From positions 248,001 to 312,000 of the forward strand of contig NZ_JABSNU010000006.1 in NCBI RefSeq assembly GCF_013266735.1: a DNA stretch of 64,000 nucleotides, written 5' to 3'. Under the pieces are notes generated by a model. It was not told the origin of the DNA. It did no database searches and saw only the letters and a program-made list of their open reading frames with translations. Shown piece by piece: positions 30,119 through 31,936 of the stretch (the first letter of the stretch is position 1; every line of letters starts with the position of its first letter). Origin of the DNA: Pedobacter foliorum. Lineage in GTDB: Bacteria > Bacteroidota > Bacteroidia > Sphingobacteriales > Sphingobacteriaceae. Made by a program: the position numbers and the translations under genes.

Positions 30119-31936
30119 ATGGAAAATTTTATAGTATCAGCCCGTAAGTACCGTCCGGCAACGTTTGAAACCGTTGTTGGCCAGCACCATATTACAGGTA
30201 CGCTAAAAAATGCCATTAAAAACAATCAACTGGCTCAAGCATTTTTATTTTGTGGGCCAAGGGGTGTAGGTAAAACTACCTGTGCACGTATCCTGGCTAA
30301 AACTATTAACTGTACTAATTTAACTGAAGATCAGGAAGCTTGCGGAACATGTGATTCATGTGTTTCATTTCAAACCGGTCACTCTTTTAATTTTCATGAA
30401 CTTGATGCTGCCTCAAACAACTCAGTTGATGATATCCGCAGTTTAATTGAACAGGTTCGTATCCCGCCACAGGCAGGAAAATATAAAATCTACATTATAG
30501 ATGAGGTGCACATGCTTTCTGCTAATGCATTTAATGCGTTTCTAAAAACGCTTGAAGAACCACCATCTTATGCTATTTTTATATTAGCTACTACAGAAAA
30601 GCATAAAATACTACCTACTATTCTATCAAGATGTCAGATTTTTGATTTCAACAGAATACAGGTCGACGATATCTCTGGCCATCTGAATAAGATTGCACAG
30701 CGTGAAAACATTTCAGTAGAAGCTGATGGATTACACATTATAGCTCAAAAGGCTGATGGTGGTTTAAGGGACGCACTTTCAATGTTCGATCAGATTGTAA
30801 GTTATACCAATAAGAACTTAACCTACAAATCGGTAATCGACAACCTGAATATTCTTGATTACGATTATTATTTTAAGCTTACTCAAAATCTGACAAGTGG
30901 AGATGTGAGTAATGCACTAATCTTATTTGACGAGATTTTAAATAATGGTTTTGATGGCAACAATTTCATCAATGGCTTAGCAGGTCACCTTCGTAACCTA
31001 TTGGTAGCCAAAGATCCGCAAACTACAAAACTATTAGAGGTAAGTGAGAACATTAAACAGAAATACATTACGCAAAGTCAACAAACACCTGTTTCTTTTA
31101 TACTTACAGCGTTAAATCTTGCCAATCAGTGCGATCTTAATTATAAGAACAGCAAAAACCAACGATTGCAGGTAGAACTGGCTCTAATAAAAATGTGCCA
31201 CATACCTTCGGTACTTCAACTAGCCCAGCTGCCTAACAATTCCGCCACTGACATAGATCAGATTAAAAAAAAAACTAATGTAAGTTCTGTTGTTCCTGCA
31301 AATACACCACCAGCAGAAGTACAAAATAAGGCACCAGAGACTACTCCAATACCTGAAGTAACGAAGCAACTACAACAGGATTCAACACCTTTACCTTCAA
31401 TTCCGGTAGCAAAAACGACTAGTCCTCCACCATCTACCAAGATCGCACTAAAGCCTCTTGCCGACAGTAAAAAAATTGCAACATTAATTCCGTCGTTAAA
31501 TGATATTGGACGTACAGAAGAAAGCGAAGAAGGTGATGAGCCAAAGTACATTAGCGGAGATGCAAGAGAAGCTTTTACATACGAGCAGCTGTTTACACTC
31601 TGGACTCAATATGCGAACAAAGCAAAAGATGATGGCAAGATCAATATATACACCTTGCTTAGTAGCTCAGATCCAATACTAGACTCTCCGGAGGAAATTA
31701 CGGTACATGTAGAGCACAAGCTACAGGAAGCTTTATTGCAAGAAGAAATGATAGATTTTCTAAATTTCTTAAGACCAAACTTGAGAAACTTTAATCTTTC
31801 AATTAAGGCCAAACAAGTGGAAAGGACAGTGGTTAACAGACTCTATACCAATAAAGAAAAGTACGAGTATCTGATTGAGAAAAACCCTAAGCTAGAAGAA
31901 ATGCGTAAACGTTTCAACCTAGACGTTAATTCCTAG
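30119..31936 (+). CDS. dnaX: DNA polymerase III subunit gamma/tau
   Basis: The clamp-loader ATPase that opens the sliding clamp and joins replisome parts. 605 residues: AAA+ domain I with Walker A GPRGVGKTT (about 48-56), the zinc module C-x-C pattern (EACGTCDSC), Walker B IDEVHMLS, and sensor 1 LATTEKHKILPTILSRCQ. Domains II-III continue to about residue 370, followed by a Pro/Thr-rich linker (about 387-460) and a C-terminal tau region. At codons 383-386 lies a run of ten A's; slippage by one base in either direction gives an immediate stop, predicting a gamma form of 386-387 residues. It is convergent with the acidic protein gene, overlapping by 11 bases. Confidence 0.97.
   Translation: MENFIVSARKYRPATFETVVGQHHITGTLKNAIKNNQLAQAFLFCGPRGVGKTTCARILAKTINCTNLTEDQEACGTCDSCVSFQTGHSFNFHELDAASNNSVDDIRSLIEQVRIPPQAGKYKIYIIDEVHMLSANAFNAFLKTLEEPPSYAIFILATTEKHKILPTILSRCQIFDFNRIQVDDISGHLNKIAQRENISVEADGLHIIAQKADGGLRDALSMFDQIVSYTNKNLTYKSVIDNLNILDYDYYFKLTQNLTSGDVSNALILFDEILNNGFDGNNFINGLAGHLRNLLVAKDPQTTKLLEVSENIKQKYITQSQQTPVSFILTALNLANQCDLNYKNSKNQRLQVELALIKMCHIPSVLQLAQLPNNSATDIDQIKKKTNVSSVVPANTPPAEVQNKAPETTPIPEVTKQLQQDSTPLPSIPVAKTTSPPPSTKIALKPLADSKKIATLIPSLNDIGRTEESEEGDEPKYISGDAREAFTYEQLFTLWTQYANKAKDDGKINIYTLLSSSDPILDSPEEITVHVEHKLQEALLQEEMIDFLNFLRPNLRNFNLSIKAKQVERTVVNRLYTNKEKYEYLIEKNPKLEEMRKRFNLDVNS
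31265..31274 (+). promoter_or_regulatory. A10 slippery run in dnaX, predicted gamma/tau switch
   Basis: Ten A's follow ATT (Ile382). In frame they read Lys-Lys-Lys-Thr and continue to tau. One extra A gives Lys-Lys-Lys-Asn-stop; one A fewer gives Lys-Lys-Lys-Leu-Met-stop. The site lies at the border between the clamp-loader core and the linker, just where gamma forms end in other bacteria. Thermus uses transcriptional slippage on A9 in dnaX, and E. coli uses ribosomal -1 frameshifting. Confidence 0.7.

Follow-up and report, generated by a model that had tools for sequence, protein, structure and literature searches.

In the dnaX gene of Pedobacter foliorum, a run of ten A's placed right behind the clamp-loader core almost certainly acts as a site of programmed slippage of some kind, through which a single gene would provide both the full-length tau protein and a short gamma. 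The slipping machine is probably, in the main, RNA polymerase, acting much as in Thermus and helped by a hairpin in the RNA exit channel. The window analyzed here is a 64,000-nt stretch of one contig of this genome, and what we observed in it and in related genomes comprises the run, the stops in both shifted frames, their conservation, a hairpin signal in relatives, and an intact tau tail in those genes that need a shift to make tau. We propose that an all-rA:dT hybrid of 9–10 bp would realign while RNA polymerase transcribes the A10, and that a nascent RNA hairpin folding at the RNA exit, directly 5' of the run, would favor the realignment. The outcome would be a mixture of mRNAs, those with 7, 10, or 13 A's encoding tau (604–606 aa) and those with other run lengths leading to an immediate stop and so to gamma (385–388 aa), which would retain the ATPase core without the linker and C-terminal domain. 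The choice of polymerase over ribosome, the effect ascribed to the hairpin, and the ratio of the products are predictions made from sequence. Whether a separate gamma exists beyond a few model bacteria, and by which route it arises, has long been debated.

The dnaX of the window scored 891 bits against the NCBIfam gamma/tau equivalog (cut-off 685) and 441 bits against dnaX_nterm (cut-off 250; match ending at residue 360), and a profile search of the whole genome found it to be the single place above the dnaX_nterm cut-off. Among the best 80 of 592 hits, the closest named relative was that of P. panaciterrae (L031; 93%). The Pfam domain III match extends to residue 366, and an AlphaFold model is folded to approximately residue 373, has pLDDT values below 50 at residues 374–474, and regains confident helices and strands past this low-confidence linker in a second folded part (~485–600). 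These limits place the run barely within the linker, in line with its earlier placement at the border of core and linker. The best structure matches of the model's core were E. coli clamp-loader chains. Core and tau-specific C-terminus share one template frame, the Thermus-type arrangement, and judging from the model a predicted product ending at 386–388 aa would be a clean clamp-loader core. Features are listed in Table 1.

Table 1. Positions of dnaX features within the window, with the basis of each assignment or the predicted folding energy.
Feature	Position	Strand	Basis or remark
dnaX, full-length tau, 605 aa	30119..31936	+	ORF; NCBIfam gamma/tau equivalog and dnaX_nterm
Clamp-loader core (AAA+, lid, domain III), common to tau and gamma	30119..31216	+	Pfam; model
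Hairpin 5' arm CTGA	31248..31251	+	−2.4 kcal/mol, weak in the window
Hairpin 3' arm TCAG, 3 nt before the run	31258..31261	+	
A10 slippage run, codons 383–386	31265..31274	+	Exact letters; conserved in genus
TAA ending gamma (386 aa) if one A is added	31276..31278	+	
Possible downstream stem-loop, would fit ribosomal shifting	31279..31323	+	−10.8 kcal/mol
TAA ending gamma (387 aa) if one A is lost	31281..31283	+	
Tau C-terminal domain, missing from gamma (~residues 485–600)	31571..31918	+	AlphaFold model

A sequence-only reading had described ten consecutive A's at codons 383–386 of a 605-aa dnaX, and the letters agree exactly: the run is preceded by T, followed by C, and begins on a codon boundary (AAA AAA AAA ACT). 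Its shifted readings were likewise correct, one A more giving AAC TAA and one A fewer CTA ATG TAA. In silico, runs of 8, 9, 10, 11, 12, and 13 A's predict products of 385, 387, 605, 386, 388, and 606 aa, respectively. Equally close stops in both other frames were found at just 11 of the 554 other codon boundaries of the gene, a figure that bears on the earlier claim that the pair is unlikely by chance. The 6.08-Mb genome has 14 occurrences of A10 or T10, and the coding cases besides dnaX are three near ORF 5' ends and two deep in ORFs (359 and at least 425 aa). Of the latter two, both named by eye, one is a glycosyltransferase-like ORF on contig 38 (L303, 467–1543; A10 at codon 178 of 359) and the other a flavin amine oxidase- or mutase-like ORF on contig 33 (L302, 3–1277; A10 at codon 89 of at least 425).

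Within the genus we sampled 145 genomes including the window's own, 141 of which had a dnaX reaching the site (G090, G091, G097, and G133 were without a usable gene). A short or interrupted run in close relatives had been named beforehand as refuting the switch; it was looked for, and 137 of the 141 genes proved to have A10 in the identical phase, from which we infer that the run is under selection. The four deviants (A11 in L209, A9 in L216 and L217, and A10 in another phase in L212) could be homopolymer errors of the assemblies. The template of L209 (genome G105), whose core is 99% identical to that of the window, encodes gamma directly, which represents either a role reversal or an assembly error. 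Counted from the start of the run, the frame with one A more meets a stop after 4 codons in 113 of the 141 genes and after 5–11 in another 27, and only L212 has it open; removal of one A leads to a stop after 4–7 codons in all 141. The post-run sequences that hold these stops vary within the genus (e.g., CTAATGTAA, CTAATGTCGTAG, CTTTAGTTAA), and such differing solutions are expected if the stops, not the residues, are under selection. Retention of stops in both shifted frames while the intervening codons vary supports the selection for a short gamma that had been suggested.

Relatives outside the genus comprised 80 named loci (the best 80 of 592 hits) and 75 loci from a phylum search, namely 62 of the window's class, out of 70 class genomes, and 13 others from the higher-ranked of 223 genomes outside the class. 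A run of at least nine A's no more than 150 nt from the end of the core was present in 266 genes (141/141 in the genus, 64/80 named, and 61/75 phylum loci) and absent from 30. In the 266-gene set, as in the 338-gene set described below, one genome or more is represented in duplicate (L032 and L141 being such a pair). In the phylum set, the run was found in 58 of the 62 loci of the window's class and in 3 of the 13 from elsewhere in the phylum. Run lengths at the site were bimodal in 167 Bacteroidota genes: six or fewer in 45, 7–8 in 4, 9 in 19, 10 in 88, and 11–13 in 11, with at least nine in 118 (the 118 genes with a run are non-redundant, and the 49 without were not made so). Elsewhere in the same genes, A runs of 6, 7, 8, 9, and 10 numbered 246, 85, 22, 3, and 1, with four of at least nine in total. 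A threshold of nine or more A's fits the 9–10-bp RNA–DNA hybrid (PMC5009743).

Long A runs might also be a by-product of chance or of coding, in this case of an AT-rich gene whose linker is rich in lysine, and in the genus genes 74% of lysines are indeed encoded by AAA. However, the codon phase of the run differs between lineages (0, 1, and 2 all occur), which shows that the string of A's is conserved rather than the lysines, and the run persists in GC-rich genes (seven genes above 55% GC, with 29 AAA vs. 65 AAG in their cores). The paired stops, the invariant synonymous ACT and CAG codons described below, and the whole groups whose dnaX needs a shift also speak against such an origin, to which we assign next to no probability. 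The codon, stop, run-length, and phase/GC tests led us to reject both the chance and the lysine-coding readings.

The switch is not indispensable, since many Bacteroidales are without the run (19 of the 20 loci L342–L361, obtained with L101 as query, have fewer than nine A's). In two uncultured Bacteroidales whose dnaX has no A-run, an in-frame TAG sits at the core/linker boundary (L073, 2788–2790; L101, 3599–3601), inside a stretch of ~35 nt that is nearly identical in both (CCMTAGATTGCWAGGTCGCCKCAGGCGGRGCACGG) and contains a CGCC..GGCG hairpin; the frame continues past the TAG to the tau C-terminus. In these two loci, and only these, gamma could be made by termination and tau by readthrough. 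Further dnaX genes with an in-frame TAG were sought in 295 genomes of one order, and none was among the matches listed.

A ribosome rather than the polymerase might slip at the run, as in E. coli dnaX. By programmed −1 frameshifting on a faithful mRNA, it would slip on A AAA AAA, read AAC TAA, and release gamma. We consider this unlikely, though several observations agree with it. The slippery A AAA AAA lies inside the A10, which offers a slippery heptamer whatever its phase, and AAC TAA places the −1-frame stop just behind, which is the E. coli-type arrangement. Both other frames are closed by a stop no more than 12 nt behind the run in 36 of the 37 genus representatives and no more than 18 nt behind it in 82 of the 102 others, and the 102 non-genus genes differ from same-gene controls at KS 6e-39 in the inserted-base frame and 3e-15 in the other. 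The tightest stop is in the inserted-base frame, which is also that of a −1 ribosomal slip (median distance 2 nt vs. 13 nt in 78 non-genus in-frame genes). (The A10 of L311 was counted as A9 in the flank-folding, codon, and stop-distance analyses.) Selection of stops in both frames nevertheless favors the polymerase, because polymerase slippage enters both and a −1 ribosomal slip only one. In addition, a run of seven would suffice for a ribosomal slip, yet runs of 7–8 are nearly absent.

Downstream structure kept the ribosomal alternative alive. The possible stem-loop behind the window's run was matched by 3 of 200 shuffles and lies at percentile 0.02 in its own gene; it is present in the sister L209, and L002, L003, L004, and L031 fold otherwise. 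Enrichment of downstream structure was mild among 84 genus genes (12 within the best 5%, with a median percentile of 0.39 and KS 2.5e-4), but over 116 genes it was not significant (10 within the best 5%, with a median percentile of 0.42 and KS 0.055), which argues against ribosomal shifting. The same is true of upstream stimulators: the 24 nt preceding the window's run hold no Shine-Dalgarno (SD)-like motif, and Bacteroidia ribosomes fail to recognize Shine-Dalgarno sequences (PMC9976891). SD-like 4-mers do precede the run in 20 of 118 relatives, compared to 8.5 expected, a slight enrichment that counts against the polymerase reading.

Upstream of the run, the window's hairpin is weak (p 0.095; 16 of 200 shuffles were as good, and 8 of 200 with the run included), and its pairing CTGA..TCAG, ending 3 nt upstream of the run, is present in 139 of 141 genus genes (L007 and L123 each lose one pair). 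No covariation was demonstrable in this hairpin across the 141 genes, in which the stem hardly varies. The codon test covered the 132 of 141 genes with A10 in phase (the remaining nine were left out for a different run, a frame break, or a missing 5' part) and found 336 conserved degenerate codon columns, seven of them with one codon in at least 98% of genes. Six of the seven are at the slippage site: ACT (−6), CAG (−2), three AAA, and ACT (+3). The AAA and first-A columns are conserved through the choice of genes with A10 in phase; ACT (−6) and CAG (−2) are not, and these are the codons that carry the paired bases CTGA..TCAG. Thr ACT (−6) and Gln CAG (−2) were each found in 132 of 132 genes, though CAA makes up 47% of Gln codons there.

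Individual representatives rarely stood out at the upstream hairpin, a p of 0.05 being reached by just 6 of 37 from the genus and 31 of 103 others, and 6 of 140 folded to nothing. Judged from predicted folds, an RNA hairpin does adjoin the 5' side of the run in many relatives as a group. Folding of 30-nt windows in 6-nt steps from −150 to +180 in the 140 representatives gave a single peak at the 5' edge of the run, with a mean energy of −5.25 kcal/mol for the window ending at the run vs. −2.28 to −3.72 kcal/mol at other offsets; with 24-nt windows and 1-nt steps, the lowest mean was at 0 and the lowest median at −1. Of the 123 hairpins of −2 kcal/mol or lower, 99 end 0–3 nt before the run, and the upstream fold was in the best 5% of its own gene's windows in 32 of 118 stricter representatives (5.9 expected). 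In 54 distinct rows with a Flavobacteriaceae-type 8-bp stem, 78.7% of cells were paired, more than in any of 1000 shuffles (maximum 77.5%), and 15 cells had double changes (shuffle mean 6.4, maximum 13), a covariation that weighs less than independent evidence as the rows are related. In a mixed Flavobacteriaceae codon test, no single codon made up 90% of any conserved column; frequencies were 0.65, 0.61, and 0.80 for the stem codons GCC, TCT, and ATC, respectively, vs. a median of 0.51 elsewhere.

A hairpin conserved on this side counts against the ribosomal alternative, since −1 shifting by 70S ribosomes at A6G is attenuated when a hairpin lies upstream (PMC6321510). Polymerase and ribosome might also both contribute, in shares that depend on lineage, and the upstream hairpin signal together with downstream structure in some genus members would suit such a mixture, which on the available sequences seems very improbable.

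Some relatives need the shift for tau rather than for gamma. Among 338 genes with an intact core, tau lies in the template frame in 254, 47 need +1 nt, 3 need −1, 30 lack a run, and 4 lack a long frame, and the tau C-terminal match is kept in 49 of the 50 shift-needing genes (the exception is L285). The earlier expectation of slippage in either direction thus holds among these relatives, albeit very unequally. The prevailing +1 nt need (47 vs. 3) fits either machine, being also the result of a −1 ribosomal shift, and to that extent these 47 of 50 genes agree with the ribosomal alternative. Whole groups are of the +1 type: open frames are 362–378 aa long in 17/17 genomes of genus g8 (all 12 fetched are +1), 375–423 aa in 7/7 of family f8 (all 7 fetched), and 362–374 aa in 6/6 of f3 (all 3 fetched). 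These cases are too many for assembly errors, so in the g8, f8, and f3 groups the shift must make tau. The dnaX of L262 and L373 (family f4) needs one base fewer, or two more, for tau, unlike the common +1 type. Parsimony on a FastTree tree of 151 representatives gave 28 changes between in-frame and two-ORF states, a count without shuffled control and inflated by single-genome cases.

The Bacteroidota dnaX site might be described as a two-part cassette, an exit-channel hairpin followed by A9–A11, in which the hairpin would set the gamma:tau ratio and lineages would repeatedly swap roles; we regard the case for and against this generalization as evenly balanced. Repeated swaps between "tau direct" and "gamma direct" would follow because the cassette would yield both products in either template frame, and where slippage efficiency is near half, a single-base change can swap the roles (PMC5009743). 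Such a cassette has the layout of an intrinsic terminator, with A's in place of the U tract. When placed in E. coli, the Thermus run slips in both directions, with insertions prevailing; the same study counts against our proposal in that insertion slippage by E. coli polymerase was weak and biased to T runs (PMC6260861).

If slippage by RNA polymerase is correct, many Bacteroidota make gamma and tau through polymerase stutter, and the role reversals are natural experiments. A dnaX that looks frameshifted in these bacteria would then probably be intact, and assemblies should be left without any "correction" of its A-run length. Three findings go beyond the sequence-only reading, namely the hairpin 5' of the run, the reversal of roles, and the spread outside the genus.

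Hallmarks of the Thermus type are mRNAs with extra or missing A's and tau and gamma at about 1:1; on the making of both proteins, the tau tail retained by 49 of 50 shift-needing relatives bears indirectly. Transcriptional slippage as a kind of mechanism is already known, as is A10 in two-ORF dnaX: the GeneTack study of 2013 described 17 dnaX genes split into two ORFs, of which nine have A10, and put forward transcriptional slippage as the mechanism (PMC3711429). In those genes tau needs the shift, and the window is the reverse, with tau in frame; a term search of the main text of that paper found no mention of a 5' hairpin at these sites. In the open literature, which leaves most subscription papers outside, we found no prior account of in-frame A10 across Bacteroidota, the nine-A threshold, the paired stops, or the abutting hairpin.

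The parallel to Thermus had been pointed out earlier. The Thermus thermophilus dnaX slips transcriptionally at A9 with stops in both frames (PMC5009743), and the window has the same gene, a run of at least nine A's past the core, a template frame that encodes tau, and nearby stops in both others (PMC5009743; PMC1088944). The two differ in that the Thermus run is A9 and lies seven-eighths through the coding sequence (PMC1088944), vs. A10 right after the core, at codon 383 of 605, in the window. In the window and its relatives a predicted hairpin also abuts the run on its 5' side, and slippage in the window is predicted from sequence. E. coli dnaX yields the same two products, with its shift about two-thirds through the gene (PMC5009743), at a heptamer of the A6G type with an upstream SD-like and a downstream hairpin stimulator (PMC3711429); the window, in contrast, has A10, no SD-like motif, and its conserved hairpin upstream. 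An RNA stem-loop 5'-adjacent to a slippery run also enables transcriptional slippage in a Roseiflexus IS, although there the motif is U5C5, the outcome a one-base deletion, and the gene a transposase (PMC5009743).
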